Source: Lentimicrobium sp. L6 | GTDB lineage: Bacteria; Bacteroidota; Bacteroidia; Bacteroidales; UBA12170 | Assembly: GCF_013166655.1 (NCBI RefSeq) | Contig: NZ_JABKCA010000007.1 | Location: 1 to 64,000 of the forward strand | DNA: 64,000 nt | Direction: 5' to 3' | Shown here: in pieces, positions 571 to 49,246 of the stretch | Numbering within the stretch: the stretch's first letter is position 1 | Layout of the letters: each line of letters starts with the position of its first letter | Program-made: the position numbers and the translations under genes | Notes under the pieces: model-generated | Databases searched by the model: none | What the model saw: the letters and a program-made list of their open reading frames with translations, nothing else | What the model was told of the DNA's origin: nothing

Positions 571-608
571 TAATAAAAAAATAGAGAGCTGCGGAGCAAC
601 TCTCTATT
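571..608 (-). terminator. Rho-independent terminator of the export operon
   Basis: The arms AATAGAGAG (580-588) and CTCTCTATT (600-608) pair perfectly, with an inner TGC/GCA stem around a GGA loop. Read on the minus strand the hairpin is followed by a T-rich run (580 down to 571). It sits about 75 bases past the membrane-fusion protein stop and insulates the next gene. Confidence 0.85.
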
Positions 609-681
609 TCAAATTATTCTAGAAATAATTTTGGATTAAGAATCCTATGATGTTAACACTTTGTGAATTAAAACACCTCTG

Positions 682-1791: not shown

Positions 1792-3060
1792 TTATTCATC
1801 TCGTAATGCATCAATTGGTTTTATACTCACTGCTCTGTTTGCTGGTATTAATCCTGCTATGGCACCAGAAACAACCAATATGATTAAGGCGGTAACTGCT
1901 TTTTCAAAATCAACTTCTGGATGGGCAAACATATCAGTATTGGCCCCAAAAGCGATCAATGCATAGTTTATCAATTCTAATAATCCAACTCCAGCAACCA
2001 AACCAATATAACCAGATACCGAAGTTAATAATACCGATTCTATGATGATTTGCTTTCTGATATGCCAAGGAGTTGCACCTAAGGCTCTTTGTACTCCAAT
2101 TTCTTTGGTTCTTTCTTTTACAATGATGAGCATGATATTACTTACGCCAATAACTCCAGCAAATAAAGTTCCAATGCCTACTATCCATATCAATCCATTG
2201 ATTCCGATAAATAGCCTAGCCATTTTTAAATATTCTTCTTCCACATTAAAAGATCCAATGGCACGTCCATCTTCTGGTGCAATTGAATGACGACTTTTTA
2301 TAACTACCTTGGCTTTCTCCAAAAGTTCAGCAGCGGAAGCCCCTTCCTTAGCTGTTATAGAATACCAGCCCACTCGATTCCCCATATTATAGGTAGATTG
2401 CATGGTGGTAAATGGCATAAATATTTGCTGGTTTTCTTGTTCGGCTTGTTGGTCATTTTTCTTTGAACTACACACTCCCACCACTCTAAAATAGACTCCT
2501 CTAATTTTTATGTTTTCACCAATTGGGTTTTCATCTTTATCGAACATCTCTTCCAAAACCCTAACACCAATAACAACCACCTTTCTTTTGTCGATAATGT
2601 CATTATTATTGATAAAACGACCTTGAAGAATATTTGATGGATCTATTTTATTATAATCTGGATAATCACCTTGTATGGAATAGGCAGCTGTTCTTTCTTT
2701 ACGAACCACATTGTTTTGGCCTTGAGCAGCAAATACTTGAAGCCTTGGTGCTATGTATTCTATCTCTGGTAATTGATCGATTAGAGCTTTGGTGTCTTCA
2801 TTTTCGAATTGAACAAATCGACCTCTAGGAAATCCCTTATAAGGAACGGTAGTTCTATTGCCCCACATAAACATACTATTGGTGGCCATGTCGCCCATTC
2901 CAGTACTCACACCATTATGAAGACCTTTACCAGCTCCAAGCATAACCACTAGCATAAAGATACCCCATGAAACTCCAAAAGCGGTAAAGAAAGTACGCAG
3001 CTTATTTTGTTTGATAGTAAACCAAATCTCCTGAAGTTTATCTGTATTGATGAAGTTCAT
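1792..3060 (-). CDS. MacB/FtsX-type ABC transporter permease (second copy)
   Basis: Inner-membrane permease of the MacB type. It has an N-terminal membrane segment (about residues 15-45), a large periplasmic MacB_PCD domain (about 50-270), then three C-terminal FtsX helices (about 285-410) with the conserved stretch RTKEIGVQRALGATPW. It ends with the family's IKPIDALRDE tail. It shares the same architecture as the preceding permease, so the two likely form a heterodimer, each contributing one half. It starts 12 bases after that gene's stop and is followed 30 bases later by the adaptor. Confidence 0.92.
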   Translation of the reverse strand: MNFINTDKLQEIWFTIKQNKLRTFFTAFGVSWGIFMLVVMLGAGKGLHNGVSTGMGDMATNSMFMWGNRTTVPYKGFPRGRFVQFENEDTKALIDQLPEIEYIAPRLQVFAAQGQNNVVRKERTAAYSIQGDYPDYNKIDPSNILQGRFINNNDIIDKRKVVVIGVRVLEEMFDKDENPIGENIKIRGVYFRVVGVCSSKKNDQQAEQENQQIFMPFTTMQSTYNMGNRVGWYSITAKEGASAAELLEKAKVVIKSRHSIAPEDGRAIGSFNVEEEYLKMARLFIGINGLIWIVGIGTLFAGVIGVSNIMLIIVKERTKEIGVQRALGATPWHIRKQIIIESVLLTSVSGYIGLVAGVGLLELINYALIAFGANTDMFAHPEVDFEKAVTALIILVVSGAIAGLIPANRAVSIKPIDALRDE

Positions 3061-3072
3061 AGCTTTTCTTTC

Positions 3073-4302
3073 TTATTCGTCTCTAAGTGCAATAACAGGT
3101 TTAACGGAAGCAGCTTTTCGTGCAGGAACAAATCCAGCTAAAGCCCCAGCAATAATGAGTATGATGGTAGCGCCTAATGCTACATTTATATTTATCTCAG
3201 GATTGGCAAAATAACTATCTCCAGAGAAACTTCCAGAGATGAGCTCTAATAATCCGACTCCCAACACCAGTCCTACATATCCTGCAAAAGCGGTAATCAT
3301 GATTGACTCTTGAAGAATTAAACTTACGATAGACCAAGGTGTCGCGCCTAAAGCTTTTCTTACTCCAATTTCTTTGGTTCTTTCTTTTACTACAATCATC
3401 ATGATATTACTCACGCCTACTATTCCAGCTATAATGGTTCCTATGCCAATAAACCAGATGAAAATTCTAATACTGGCAAATAGATTCATAAATTGCTGAT
3501 AATTCTCAATACTATTAAAAATGAAAAGTGCTCGAGTATCACTGGGGTCGAATTTGAATTTATCCGACATGGAGGACTTTATTTCACTTACGGTTTGGTA
3601 GCTTTCTTCAACGCTAGCATCTCCAAGCATCAGTTGGATAGAATTCACTCTTTCACCCATTCCAAATACCCGTTGACCTGTACTGGTTGGAATGTAGATT
3701 CGCTGTAAATCACGATCGGAACCCGGATCGTTGAATACTCCTATTACTTTAAATGGCACTCCTCCAATATTGATGTATTTATCTATAGCTGGTTCTCCTT
3801 TGAAGAGCTCCTCATATACAATTCTTCCTAAAGAAGCTACTTTTCTAGTTTTATCTTGGTCGTTTTTGTTTAAAAATCTACCAGATATCATAGTTAAATC
3901 TTCTACATATTTATAGTCTGGAGAAATAGCGAAAACATCGAAGGTGCCGTATTGTTGTTTGTAATTGATGGTGCTTATTCTCCAAAGTCTTGTTCTGCTC
4001 GCTGACATGTCTACATTACTCAAGCCCGCCAAGATGTCGTGATCTTCGTTTTTAAACTGGATAAATCGACCAGGTTTCATTCCTTTATATGGTTTACTGG
4101 TTACTCCACCATTAATAGAAAGGTAGTTTACAGCATCTCCTTCAAATTCTTTTTTGACTCCGTTTTCGAGGCCATAACCAGAACCTAAGAGGATGATCAG
4201 CATAAATATACCCCAAGCCACACTAAAACCAGTCAAGATGGTTCTTAACTTATTTTTCTTGATGGTTTCAAATATTTCTTGCCATTTATCCAGATCAAAC
4301 AT
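3073..4302 (-). CDS. MacB/FtsX-type ABC transporter permease (first copy)
   Basis: Paralogue of the downstream permease, with the same order of one N-terminal helix, periplasmic MacB_PCD domain and three FtsX helices. The FtsX signature is RTKEIGVRKALGATPW and the C-terminus is VKPVIALRDE. It lacks an ATPase domain, unlike E. coli MacB, whose ATPase is fused. Here the ATPase is a separate gene upstream. It begins 11 bases after the stop of the 59-residue small gene. The two-permease arrangement is common in Bacteroidota mechanotransmission-type exporters. Substrates could be peptides, lipoproteins or small molecules. Confidence 0.92.
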   Translation of the reverse strand: MFDLDKWQEIFETIKKNKLRTILTGFSVAWGIFMLIILLGSGYGLENGVKKEFEGDAVNYLSINGGVTSKPYKGMKPGRFIQFKNEDHDILAGLSNVDMSASRTRLWRISTINYKQQYGTFDVFAISPDYKYVEDLTMISGRFLNKNDQDKTRKVASLGRIVYEELFKGEPAIDKYINIGGVPFKVIGVFNDPGSDRDLQRIYIPTSTGQRVFGMGERVNSIQLMLGDASVEESYQTVSEIKSSMSDKFKFDPSDTRALFIFNSIENYQQFMNLFASIRIFIWFIGIGTIIAGIVGVSNIMMIVVKERTKEIGVRKALGATPWSIVSLILQESIMITAFAGYVGLVLGVGLLELISGSFSGDSYFANPEININVALGATIILIIAGALAGFVPARKAASVKPVIALRDE

Positions 4303-4313
4303 AGGGATGGGTT

Positions 4314-4493
4314 TTAGTTTTGGAATAAAATCTGATCAACTTTATTTCGGTATTGCATCCAGCTTTTAATCTCTGATGAGTTAATCATCTGAGCACTGGC
4401 TTTGGCGATGTGCAGATAATGCTCCCTCAATACACTTAATGTATCGGGAGCTTTATCTACGGAGTTTGTGTTTAAAGGACTTTTTGTTTTCAT
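4314..4493 (-). CDS. 59-residue small protein inside the export operon
   Basis: Reading the minus strand from the ATG at 4493 gives an uninterrupted 59-codon frame ending in TAA. It lies exactly between the ATPase (stop 18 bases upstream) and the first permease (start 11 bases downstream). The product starts MKTKSPLNTNSVDKAPDTLS and ends YRNKVDQILFQN. It has no signal peptide or membrane helix, and its middle is predicted helical (LREHYLHIAKASAQMINSS, EIKSWMQYRNKVDQIL). The snug fit in the operon and sensible composition argue for a real gene, perhaps an ATPase or permease accessory. No family is recognised and no function is assigned. Confidence 0.6.
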   Translation of the reverse strand: MKTKSPLNTNSVDKAPDTLSVLREHYLHIAKASAQMINSSEIKSWMQYRNKVDQILFQN

Positions 4494-4511
4494 GGTATAC
4501 TTGTTTTGATG

Positions 4512-5261
4512 CTATATGAGAGTTTCATGAATTTTCTGTACTTCGTTTTCATTCAACAGGTTTTGAGTTCTGAAATTTTTTAAGTCGCCATTATAAATAT
4601 TCTTTTCTATCACTCCATCTTTCAATCGAATGATACGATTAGTCATGGCCGCAATATCACTTTCATGAGTAACCAAAATAATGGTAATACCATCGTCGTT
4701 TATCTCTTTCAGAATCTTCATCACTTCATAGGATGTATTGGTATCAAGTGCTCCTGTTGGCTCATCGGCTAGAATTACTTTAGGTTGAGCAATTAGTGCT
4801 CTTGCAATGGCTAATCTTTGTTTTTGTCCACCTGATAATTCATTAGGCATGTGTAAAGCCCATTCTTTAAGTCCCATCTTATCCAAATATTCCATAGCTA
4901 GGATGTTTCTTTTCTTGCGACTGACTTTCTGGTAATAAAGAGGTAGTGCAACGTTTTCCATGGCGTTTTTAAAAGAGATGAGGTTGAAAGATTGAAACAC
5001 GAATCCCAGCATTTCATTTCTATAATGTGCTGCTTTTTTTTCGCTCATATTTTGAATCAACTTGCCATTTAAATAATATTCTCCCATGTCATAATTGTCG
5101 AGTATACCAAGAATGTTAAGCATAGTAGATTTTCCTGAACCAGAGGAGCCCATAATGGACACCAATTCTCCTTTTTCAATCCCAAGGTTAATACCTTTCA
5201 GAACGTGTAATTTATTGGAACCTATAGAATAAGATTTGTTGATGTTTTTGAGCGAAATCAT
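4512..5261 (-). CDS. ABC transporter ATP-binding protein (MacB/LolD type)
   Basis: ATPase subunit of the exporter. Walker A GSSGSGKST is at residues 38-46, the Q-loop FQSFN near 89, signature LSGGQKQR at 142-149, Walker B VILADEPTGALD at 162-173, and the switch His in VTHES. The start at MISLKNINKSY is chosen because homology of this family begins there. An 18-residue upstream extension is possible but has no family support. At 249 residues it is slightly longer than LolD-type ATPases. It is the first gene of the operon. The upstream region carries two phased palindromic sites that may be operators. Confidence 0.93.
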   Translation of the reverse strand: MISLKNINKSYSIGSNKLHVLKGINLGIEKGELVSIMGSSGSGKSTMLNILGILDNYDMGEYYLNGKLIQNMSEKKAAHYRNEMLGFVFQSFNLISFKNAMENVALPLYYQKVSRKKRNILAMEYLDKMGLKEWALHMPNELSGGQKQRLAIARALIAQPKVILADEPTGALDTNTSYEVMKILKEINDDGITIILVTHESDIAAMTNRIIRLKDGVIEKNIYNGDLKNFRTQNLLNENEVQKIHETLI

Positions 5262-5363
5262 AAAATTCGTTTTTCTTCTTTTATCTATAATCATACCATT
5301 ATACTTAATATACATGACCTCAGTGCTTTGCCTTTTTAAGAGGCTTTACTTTAACATTTTTTA

Positions 5364-5400
5364 TGTTCGGGGACTAACATGGACTGTTCGTTATCGACCA
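5364..5400. promoter_or_regulatory. Two phased imperfect palindromes, candidate operators of the export operon
   Basis: Two copies of TGTTCG-N4-(C/T-rich half site) lie at 5364-5379 (TGTTCGGGGACTAACA) and 5385-5400 (TGTTCGTTATCGACCA). Each is one mismatch from a symmetric TGTTCG-N4-CGAACA. They start exactly 21 bases apart, two helical turns, which fits cooperative binding by a dimeric regulator. They lie 100-140 bases upstream of the ATPase gene and about the same distance from the divergent dehydrogenase. The regulator is unknown. Confidence 0.45.
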
Positions 5401-5475
5401 TTTTAAACTTGTAGACTATCGATTATTTCACATTCTATTAGGAATTTATTCACCAACTATCTTTTCTAATCAGTA

Positions 5476-5483
5476 TACATTTG
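5476..5483 (+). promoter_or_regulatory. -7 promoter element of the aldehyde dehydrogenase gene
   Basis: The octamer TACATTTG matches the Bacteroidota consensus TAnnTTTG, 27 bases before the ATG. Confidence 0.6.
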
Positions 5484-5510
5484 CCGTTCGAAAAAATAAA
5501 TTATATATAA

Positions 5511-7064
5511 ATGAAAAATATTAGCATTCCAGGCATTCTCAAAAGCTTGGGTATCAAAAAAATAAATAAAGGTGTTTCTACTGGAGCTCAGTGGTATGAA
5601 ACTGTAGGTAATATAAGTAATTCTGTTTCCCCAATTGATGGAAAGGAAATAGCAAAAGTTCAGAATGGCACTATTGAAGATTACGAAATGGTGGTGCAAA
5701 AAGCACAATCAGCTTTTAAGGTTTGGCGAATGGTTCCTGCTCCAGAGCGCGCCGAGATTGTTCGTAAAATAGGAATTGCCCTAAGAGAAAATAAAGAAGA
5801 CTTAGGCGCTCTGGTGACTTTAGAAATGGGAAAAACCTATCAGGAAGGTCTTGGAGAAGTTCAGGAAATGATAGATATCTGTGATTTTGCGGTAGGTCAA
5901 GCGAGATTGATGAATGGTATTAACTTACAATCTGAAAGACCAAATCACCGTTTGTCTGAGCAATATCATCCATTGGGAATTGTGGGAATTGTTACTTCTT
6001 ATAATTTCCCCGTTGCTGTTTGGGCATGGAACTCTGCTTTAGCAGCCATTGCTGGTGATGTGGTCATCTGGAAACCAAGCTCTAAAACTCCAATCACAGC
6101 TTTAGCCACTCAGCATATTATTAAACAAGTTTTAATTGATAATAATGTCCCAGAAGGGGTATTCAATTTGGTAGTGGCAAAATCTTCAGTTATGGGAGAC
6201 AATTTCATTGCTGATAAAAGAGTTGCCTTGATGTCGATTACTGGTTCAACTGCTGTTGGTAAGAGAGTAGGAGGAATTGTAGGCAAAAGACTAGGGAAAA
6301 CCATTCTCGAATTAGGTGGGAATAATGCAGTAATTATCACACCAAATGCTGATTTGCAGATGGCCATTATGTCTACTGTATTTGGAACTGTTGGTACAGC
6401 TGGACAGCGTTGTACCTCAACACGGAGAGTGATTATTCACGAAGATATTTATGAGGAGGTTAAAGAGAAATTTGTCCATGCTTATGAAGGATTAAAACCA
6501 AAGATTGGGGATCCTCTTGATGAAAGTCATTTGATTGGACCACTGATTGACAATGGTTCAGTTGAGCTATTCAGAAATGCAGTGGAACAAGTAGAGAAAG
6601 AAGGTGGTAAAGTAATCTTTGGTGGTGAAGTTTTAGAAGGACCTGGTTTCGAAAGCGGAAACTATGTGATGCCTTGTATTGCTGAAGCTGAGAACCATTA
6701 TGAAATTGTTCAAGATGAGACTTTTGCACCAATTGTGTATTTTATCAAATACTCTGGCGATATTCATAATGCAATAGCTATACAGAACGATGTGCCACAA
6801 GGTTTGTCTTCTGCATGTTTTACATTAGATATGCGCGAAGCAGAAACATTCCTTTCTGTTGCTGGTTCCGATTGTGGCATTGCCAATGTAAACCTTGGAA
6901 CATCAGGTGCTGAAATTGGTGGTGCTTTTGGTGGAGAAAAGGATACGGGAGGAGGACGTGAGTCAGGCTCTGACGCTTGGAAGGTATATATGCGTCGCCA
7001 AACCAATAGTGTTAATTATGGTTCTAGTTTGCCTTTAGCTCAGGGTATTAAGTTCGATATTTAA
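5511..7064 (+). CDS. Family-7 aldehyde dehydrogenase (L-aminoadipate-semialdehyde / piperideine-6-carboxylate type)
   Basis: NAD-dependent aldehyde dehydrogenase of the ALDH7 (antiquitin) group, which oxidises alpha-aminoadipate semialdehyde in lysine breakdown. The catalytic Cys is C301 in GQRCTSTRR and the general base is E267 in LELGGNN. The cofactor-binding stretch VTSYNFPVAVWAW and the ALDH7-like GGAFGGEKDTGGGRESGSDAWK near the C-terminus are present. The length (517) is normal and the protein is cytoplasmic. It stands alone with its own promoter and a strong terminator. No other lysine-catabolic gene is nearby, so the exact substrate is inferred from family resemblance only. Confidence 0.9.
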   Translation: MKNISIPGILKSLGIKKINKGVSTGAQWYETVGNISNSVSPIDGKEIAKVQNGTIEDYEMVVQKAQSAFKVWRMVPAPERAEIVRKIGIALRENKEDLGALVTLEMGKTYQEGLGEVQEMIDICDFAVGQARLMNGINLQSERPNHRLSEQYHPLGIVGIVTSYNFPVAVWAWNSALAAIAGDVVIWKPSSKTPITALATQHIIKQVLIDNNVPEGVFNLVVAKSSVMGDNFIADKRVALMSITGSTAVGKRVGGIVGKRLGKTILELGGNNAVIITPNADLQMAIMSTVFGTVGTAGQRCTSTRRVIIHEDIYEEVKEKFVHAYEGLKPKIGDPLDESHLIGPLIDNGSVELFRNAVEQVEKEGGKVIFGGEVLEGPGFESGNYVMPCIAEAENHYEIVQDETFAPIVYFIKYSGDIHNAIAIQNDVPQGLSSACFTLDMREAETFLSVAGSDCGIANVNLGTSGAEIGGAFGGEKDTGGGRESGSDAWKVYMRRQTNSVNYGSSLPLAQGIKFDI

Positions 7065-47714: not shown

Positions 47715-49145
47715 TTAAGTTTCGGGTAGGAATAGGGCATCCATCTTAATATCATTTTGAACTAAACCTAATGAATGTTGGTTTTCTAGGATTCCATAGG
47801 TGGTGAGCATGCATAAGAATACAGATTTTCTAGTAGAGGTTTCAGTTTTAAAAAGACCGATTTTGTTTCTTAGTTCGCTGGCATATTTTTTTGTAATGGT
47901 ATAGGGGTTTATAGAGAATTTTACTTCACATAAATTAATCACCTGATCCCTTCTGTCTATGACTAAATCAATTTGAGCACCATTATCAGAACTCATACTT
48001 CTCCATGATGAAACTTCAGAGTACACACCACTAATTCCTAGTTTTTGTTTAATCTGAGGAATGTGTTGAAGGCAAATTTGCTCATAAGTATAGCCACTCC
48101 AAGCCCGATATTTAGGAGAGTCAATTGTGTTTATCCAATTGTTTTTATCTATTGCATTCGAGTCTTTAATGAATCTCAAATAAAACATTGAATAAAAGTC
48201 AACCAGCTGATATAAGCTATTTCTAAACTTCTTCCCAAAAGGTTGGTATTTTCTAATAAACCCGCTCTGTTCTAGTTCATCTAATACACGAGTTGTACTT
48301 CCTGCATTAGGTAAATCAGATAGTTTTACAATTTCATCTCGGGTTAAGCCCATGGCTTTTTTAGCCATCACCGAAATGATTTTGACATGGTTTTCAGATT
48401 TTTTAAATAATGAACGAAATAAGTTATTGAATTCATTCCTTAGTAGGCCTGTTTCTGAAAAACACACTTCTTCTATATTTTGAAAGGCACTTTTCCCAGC
48501 TTGGATTTCATCCCAATAAAATGGTATCCCTCCTATTGACATATACAATTGAATGATTTGATACCTATCTAATTCTATAGTTCTATTTTTTAAATACTTC
48601 TCACATTCGAATAAATTGAATGGATTTAATTTAATAGTTTTTGTAATTCTATTGTGAAGACCTCCTTTGTTATTGATAAGTTTATTTACCATCCATGAGG
48701 TTGCAGATCCGCAAACAATTAAAATAACATCATTGCGTGCAGAAGCCCAACTATTCCAGAAATGCTCTAATCCTTGAATAAATTTTGAATTTCTGGTATC
48801 AAACCATGGTAATTCATCAATGAATATGACTTTTTTCCCAATTTTGGTTTCCAAAAAATCGATTAGTTGTGCGAAGGCTGTTATCCAGTCTTCTGCTAAA
48901 TTGATGGTTTCATTGTTTTTTTGATGTGTATTTATGGTTAGGTTGAAGTTTGCTAATTGAAGTTTGCTTGAAGTATTAGCTAAACCTGTTATTTGAAAGG
49001 TAAACTTATTCTCAAAAGCAGATCTTATTAGATAGGTTTTGCCAACTCTTCTTCTTCCATAAACAGCAATAAATTCTGACTTATGTGAATGATAAAGCTT
49101 ATCGAGTAAGCTAAGTTCTTTTTCTCTTCCTACAATTTCACCCAT
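47715..49145 (-). CDS. AAA ATPase with C-terminal DUF234/nuclease-like domain
   Basis: Member of the archaeal-ATPase-like group found in variable copy number in Bacteroidota and archaea. Walker A GRRRVGKT is at residues 30-37 and Walker B VIFIDE near 106-111. A winged-helix region follows (about 255-320, MAKKAMGLTRDEIVKLSDLP). The C-terminal domain shows a PD-(D/E)xK-like pattern: D393 in GAQIDLVID, and E407-x-K409 in LCEVKFS. It may act on DNA, but no target is established. Its upstream region carries two matched palindromic repeat pairs. No toxin, methylase or integrase is adjacent. Confidence 0.87.
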   Translation of the reverse strand: MGEIVGREKELSLLDKLYHSHKSEFIAVYGRRRVGKTYLIRSAFENKFTFQITGLANTSSKLQLANFNLTINTHQKNNETINLAEDWITAFAQLIDFLETKIGKKVIFIDELPWFDTRNSKFIQGLEHFWNSWASARNDVILIVCGSATSWMVNKLINNKGGLHNRITKTIKLNPFNLFECEKYLKNRTIELDRYQIIQLYMSIGGIPFYWDEIQAGKSAFQNIEEVCFSETGLLRNEFNNLFRSLFKKSENHVKIISVMAKKAMGLTRDEIVKLSDLPNAGSTTRVLDELEQSGFIRKYQPFGKKFRNSLYQLVDFYSMFYLRFIKDSNAIDKNNWINTIDSPKYRAWSGYTYEQICLQHIPQIKQKLGISGVYSEVSSWRSMSSDNGAQIDLVIDRRDQVINLCEVKFSINPYTITKKYASELRNKIGLFKTETSTRKSVFLCMLTTYGILENQHSLGLVQNDIKMDALFLPET

Positions 49146-49154
49146 GAGACTTTA

Positions 49155-49246
49155 TTTGGCTATAAATATATAAAAAATTATAGTTGTAGCCAAATAGAAT
49201 TCTAAATATGGCTATAAGTCTTCTAAATACATTGTTTATAGCCAAA
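49155..49246. repeat. Two tandem copies of an inverted-repeat unit upstream of the AAA ATPase gene
   Basis: TTTGGCTATAA (49155-49165) is followed 29 bases on by its near complement TTGTAGCCAAA (49184-49194). The same pair recurs exactly 52 bases later as TATGGCTATAA (49207-49217) and TTATAGCCAAA (49236-49246). The units diverge between the half sites, so the half sites appear constrained. The first copy starts 10 bases from the ATG and overlaps the likely promoter. It may be an operator or a recognition site. Confidence 0.7.

Follow-up and report, generated by a model that had tools for sequence, protein, structure and literature searches.

A conserved hairpin within a small, probably translated frame between the ATPase and permease genes of a MacB-like operon of Lentimicrobium sp. 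L6

The window analysed here, a stretch of 64,000 nucleotides of Lentimicrobium sp. L6 (NZ_JABKCA010000007.1, positions 1 to 64,000), carries on its minus strand, in the order of transcription, the genes for an ABC ATPase (4512-5261), a small open reading frame (ORF) of 59 codons plus stop with an ATG start (4314-4493), a first MacB_PCD/FtsX permease (3073-4302), a second MacB_PCD/FtsX permease (1792-3060) and an HlyD/RND_mfp-type periplasmic adaptor (682-1761), followed by a terminator-like hairpin 3' of the adaptor gene (578-610, minus strand; z -7.3 for the 71-nt stretch 576-646), which is the probable end of the operon. The ATPase start at 5261 was picked to match the orthologues, as the mechanically called frame extends to 5315. 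The small ORF is separated from the ATPase stop by 18 nt (4494-4511) and from the permease start by 11 nt (4303-4313). The sequence-only reading of this DNA had given the frame and both gaps exactly and had left the strand, here minus, unnamed. Orthologues of the small ORF occupy the same slot in two other genomes of the genus, G003 (locus L002) and G002 (locus L003), having gaps of 17 and 18 nt, respectively, on the ATPase side and of 11 and 12 nt on the permease side.

The gene content is that of MacB-like (type VII) operons, with an ATPase, two MacB_PCD/FtsX permeases and an HlyD-type adaptor, and the ABC_tran, MacB_PCD, FtsX and HlyD_3 models were all matched above their cut-offs, as was RND_mfp by the adaptor (131.4 bits, cut-off 94.9). 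The MacB equivalog PRK10535 was not reached by either permease (87.8 and 122.6 bits) or by the ATPase (240.7 bits) at its cut-off of 966; here, unlike in MacB-like operons, the ATPase and permease are unfused. A further difference from operons of this kind is the small ORF itself, which is missing in the 55 other parsed operons with the same permease. In G003, a 207-nt AT-rich spacer (L039, 8707-8913) lies between the second permease and the adaptor genes, where the window has 30 nt.

By peptide search, the small ORF was found in three of 60 relatives, the window's own genome counted, and clear matches were present in three of the 11 genus genomes, several of which are incomplete (74-86%); partial matches with E values of 0.1-0.5 were found in four others of the genus. 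The orthologous peptides are 76% (G003) and 42-43% (G002) identical to that of the window, with no indels across the 59 codons, and the conservation of both slot and frame in two relatives indicates that the frame is more than chance. The sequence-only reading had named absence of the frame from relatives, or frameshifts, as what would speak against it; the frame is kept without frameshift in the three genus genomes, so this outcome did not arise. The same two loci came up in a scan of a named genome collection, one in a Bacteroidales metagenome-assembled genome (MAG; JADGDY01) and the other in a MAG labelled Draconibacterium orientale (DYSN01). Beyond the genus, a profile search of 393 genomes of the order and 395 of the class, both samples from larger groups, gave no convincing relative of the ORF. 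The three order genomes with a match at E of at most 0.01 were the window's own and two with rejected chance matches, and the single class genome was the window's own. The rejected matches were that of G221 (E 1.3e-4), in the opening part of a long frame resembling a TonB-dependent receptor by eye, and that of G188 (E 0.005), with a stop inside the match and antisense to a frame that by eye looks like a geranylgeranyl-reductase type. Similarly, no relative was found among viral contigs or plasmids.

The surrounding spacers were compared in 64 operon loci, made up of all 58 permease matches and six from another permease search. The spacer could be parsed in 58 of the 64, three with and 55 without the ORF; the other six (L077, L078, L079, L084, L095 and L112) could not be parsed, as the upstream sequence gave no ATPase stop. 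The expectation that the same small frame would stand at this place in other Bacteroidota operons was thus not borne out, neither in the 55 operons nor by a convincing relative outside the genus. The median gap between ATPase and permease is 18 nt (n = 47 parsed loci). Within the genus, the first permease is at least 66% identical in four of the 11 genomes (the three with the ORF and G009), about 50% in four and about 30% in three, and in G009, the closest permease of the genus outside the three, the gap is 21 nt and the ORF is absent. Spacers of at least 60 nt occur in 12 of the 55 operons without the ORF, with unrelated content. Eleven of these long spacers were folded (L086 was left out), and four, from four other lineages, contain strong hairpins by mononucleotide shuffle (L044, z -4.3; L046, -4.7; L054, -3.4; L060, -5.7), which are unrelated to the one described below and may be inserted repeats. 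Additionally, G211 has in the same slot an unrelated orphan ORF of 62 codons (L052, 2739-2927, minus strand) in a 213-nt spacer with similar end spacing, for which no relative was found in the sole other genome of its family. In G005, of the same genus, the spacer of 62 nt (L011, 1165-1226, minus strand) lacks an ORF and forms a short hairpin with perfect pairing (z -2.85).

Several comparisons indicate that the small ORF is probably translated. Frame 0 has no stops in the three species, and forward frames 1 and 2 have 3-7. Differences from G003 fall on codon positions 1/2/3 as 7/8/19 (binomial p 0.006), with a pN/pS of 0.34, a value to which one reverse-strand frame comes near (0.42); those from G002 fall as 25/24/31, a weak pattern, with a pN/pS of 0.64. 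The check for codon-level conservation proposed by the earlier reading thus came out in favor of a kept frame, with a third-position excess that is clear against G003 and weak against G002. In similarity over the whole frame, frame 0 is best for both G003 (z 18.3 vs 12.6 and 14.6) and G002 (10.0 vs 6.8 and 7.4). Against G002, frame 0 also leads in codons 29-59 (z 4.15; others 2.92 and 2.21), where eight of 31 residues are identical, a sign of fast divergence; in codons 1-11, frame 2 (z 4.71) exceeds frame 0 (z 4.17). Outside codons 13-28, one of 5000 column shuffles had as few nonsynonymous pairs as the real frame, a test that overstates the coding signal because clustered change gets broken up. 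The codon usage score of 0.122 per codon lies above 16.5% of 260 pieces of long genes, and 33% of 93 small ORFs score at least as high.

The description of the peptide as belonging to no known family agrees with the searches, as no Pfam or NCBIfam match was obtained for the window peptide up to E 1, and the three-row profile matched no sequence of the PDB up to E 10. Two PHROGs families were weakly matched (E 0.024 and 0.12), each by one of the three members and neither by the window's own; weak Pfam matches of the G003 orthologue, below cut-off, were rejected (MmcB-like, E 0.022; Peptidase_C69, E 0.13). An AlphaFold2 model from the three sequences predicts helices at residues 18-37 and 40-56, with modest confidence (mean pLDDT 75.8, pTM 0.36), which agrees with the earlier description of the peptide as helical; Foldseek against the PDB gave no fold match. 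By eye, the peptide has no long hydrophobic stretch, and no run of a single amino acid is visible.

The new element, which the sequence-only reading had overlooked, is a conserved 49-nt hairpin within the frame (4412-4460, minus strand, codons 12-28). It consists of an 8-pair lower stem, a 6-pair GCTCCC/GGGAGC stem, a 2-nt bulge, a 7-pair upper stem and a 3-nt loop, and includes an invariant G-U pair; most of the upper stem is missing in G002. Its minimum free energy in the window, G003 and G002 is -26.3, -22.9 and -19.5 kcal/mol, with z of -6.1, -5.3 and -2.7 over 71-nt stretches, and its core pairs CTCCC/GGGAG have a probability of 0.90-1.0 in the fold of the full spacer. In a strand-specific scan of 63,930 stretches of 71 nt, its antisense reading ranks first in stability (-27.8) and its sense reading fourth (-27.2); other sites of the window have stronger z, down to -9.1, the value of a very strong AT-rich hairpin at 49141-49211 on the plus strand. 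Sense and antisense energies in the three species are -26.3/-22.3, -22.9/-28.8 and -19.5/-20.2, and because they differ inconsistently, action as RNA rather than as DNA is not proven by them. The site is not among the listed terminators, and Rfam gave no match up to E 1 in positions 3900-5600. With a structure model, each of the three genomes showed a single strong sense-strand site; antisense readings of these sites aside, the 11 genus genomes gave no additional match below E 0.05, with 150 of 174 (G000) and 150 of 193 (G003) first-look candidates scored. The many genomic copies of REP-like dispersed repeats were hence not found.

None of 5000 synonymous recodings was as stable as the real hairpin in any of the three species, and under a milder control, in which the synonymous codons of the ORF itself were permuted, 10, 20 and 5 of 2000 reached that stability; the hairpin is therefore not explained by the peptide alone. 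In agreement, pS is lower in the ORF than in the flanking ATPase and permease genes (0.41 vs 0.67-0.71 against G003; 0.64 vs 0.87-0.92 against G002). Against G002, the low pS sits in codons 12-28 (0.27, compared with 0.85 in codons 29-59), where pN/pS is about 1.0; against G003, it is spread (0.35 vs 0.50). With the hairpin set as codons 12-28 for these tests, identical residues of the hairpin are encoded by identical codons in 8 of 10 cases against G002 (flanks 0.39, p 0.018) and in 13 of 16 against G003 (flanks 0.55, p 0.041). For codons outside the hairpin the counts are 21 of 27 against G003 (p 0.018) and 8 of 14 against G002 (p 0.27), and the hairpin explains the low pS only in part, since non-hairpin codons are also unusually conserved against G003. 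Paired cells amount to 92%, and to 30-52% with the partner slid. Among the 21 pairs there is one in which both partners change, and the covariation score is attained by 351 of 500 shuffles. At the level of sequence comparison, the hairpin is shown to carry a nucleotide constraint that exceeds the needs of the peptide, a claim limited by the thin covariation and the three species.

In the predicted spacer folds of the window, G003 and G002, the hairpin leaves the bases before the permease start unengaged; in the window and in G002 they stay unpaired, and G003 forms a weak stem of its own there that ends 6 nt before the ATG. A pairing of the 3' arm of the hairpin with the permease start region, seen by eye in the window, was rejected, its complementary bases being absent in G003. 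As the site is unlisted as a terminator and the permease start is uninvolved in these folds, the hairpin is unlikely to be a terminator or to switch that start directly. Here it is proposed, with about even confidence, that the slot holds a translated spacer gene specific to the lineage, with an RNA hairpin that would tune the expression of the ATPase relative to the permease in this MacB-like operon. The hairpin would act as RNA and set the ATPase-to-permease ratio, either as a barrier that shields the ATPase portion of the message from decay or by slowing ribosomes down. Translation of the ORF would ferry ribosomes over the spacer of about 210 nt to a stop codon that precedes the permease ATG by 11-12 nt, and coupling would therefore be kept; the peptide itself may also have a function. 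The model is favored by the stability and synonymous constraint of the hairpin, by the kept gaps on both sides of the ORF and by the recurrence of strong, unrelated hairpins (z below -3 by mononucleotide shuffle) in the same spacer of the four lineages without the ORF, although these may be inserted repeats. Against this tuning model stand the thin covariation in three sequences, the conserved codons outside the hairpin against G003 and the inconsistent sense and antisense energies; moreover, a translating ribosome would open the hairpin, and the coding constraint outside the hairpin exceeds what a mere spacer needs.

A strong rival, the view of the sequence-only reading, is regarded as possible but on the unlikely side: the product would be a small soluble helical protein that joins the exporter as an accessory subunit or regulates it, the hairpin being secondary. 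It draws on the absence of indels in three species, the lead of frame 0 over the whole frame against both relatives and in codons 29-59 against G002, the near-unmatched low nonsynonymous count outside the hairpin and the two predicted helices, whereas the 55 other operons lack the ORF, the C-terminal codons diverge fast, frame 2 leads in codons 1-11 against G002, the hairpin codons combine low pS with a pN/pS near 1.0, no PDB fold was matched and the column shuffles inflate the coding signal. Less probable still is a dual-purpose gene in which a folded two-helix exporter-binding protein and an RNA switch would share the same bases, so that pump assembly or translation speed would feed back on the ATPase-to-permease ratio; this is regarded as speculative. 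A translation-dependent switch, in which ribosome speed or stalling on the ORF would decide hairpin formation and thereby control the permease as an attenuator-like device within the operon, is slightly better placed than the dual-purpose gene but improbable. The hairpin does start at codon 12, after an accessible ORF start (mean unpaired probability 0.81-0.85), and the ORF stop adjoins the permease start, but the bases before that start lie outside the hairpin in the spacer folds, the site is unlisted as a terminator, the peptide shows no run of one amino acid, and neither the terminator tail nor the structure over the downstream start that marks a leader-peptide attenuator was found.

Two other explanations are considered very unlikely. 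One takes the element as a DNA inverted repeat bound by a dimeric regulator within the operon, as it forms a long imperfect palindrome without a consistent difference between sense and antisense energies, its antisense reading ranking above the sense one in the stability scan; yet the structure model found no convincing second genomic site, the asymmetric 2-nt bulge and invariant G-U pair suit RNA better, and the spacers contain no TANNTTTG, a Bacteroidota promoter motif. The other, with the same low probability, sees a neutral relic, a piece inserted in the ancestor of the clade whose open frame and hairpin were kept by chance. Other such operons do hold unrelated long spacers, some palindromic, and one genome an unrelated orphan 62-codon ORF in the slot, but in the three species structure and frame are kept where flanking synonymous sites are near saturation. 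In sum, what the sequence-only reading observed is confirmed, and its interpretation is supported in part, namely for a conserved small frame in the slot in three of the 11 genus genomes, which is not a feature of Bacteroidota at large.

The tuning model has counterparts among known systems. The puf hairpin is intercistronic, and the malE-malF REP is a further case of mRNA protection. In the puf operon of Rhodobacter capsulatus, hairpins can keep the message from being cleaved (PMC7509114). The window hairpin resembles puf-type hairpins in being stable, without a terminator tail and inside a polycistronic message, and differs in lying within a conserved small ORF that gave no convincing second hairpin copy among the genus genomes. 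It is stable, conserved, between cistrons and without a terminator tail, as expected of a protecting hairpin, in three species only. Another comparison is the gene VII-gene IX system of filamentous phage. Where an upstream gene runs across a hairpin, the coupling of translation can be influenced by it (PMC12548453). The likeness is a short upstream gene that spans the hairpin and ends near the next start; in contrast, the window hairpin ends 109 nt before the permease start (4303-4411 between), and the start region is uncovered in the predicted folds. CcmD, KdpF and AcrZ are small membrane proteins tied to transporters, and the small ORF is like them a tiny gene in or linked to a transporter operon, but its peptide, unlike these membrane proteins, has no long hydrophobic stretch by eye. 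No description of this small ORF/hairpin element was found in titles and abstract openings of the literature, which does not prove that it is unpublished.

Part of the conservation seen in a small ORF can stem from RNA structure and not from the peptide, which is a warning for the interpretation of such frames. Operons for multi-subunit pumps must balance their parts, and in this group a few species have a spacer gene with a hairpin between ATPase and permease, where most of the examined relatives have few bases. This presence and absence among relatives offers a natural comparison with and without the element, which makes the role of such elements directly testable.
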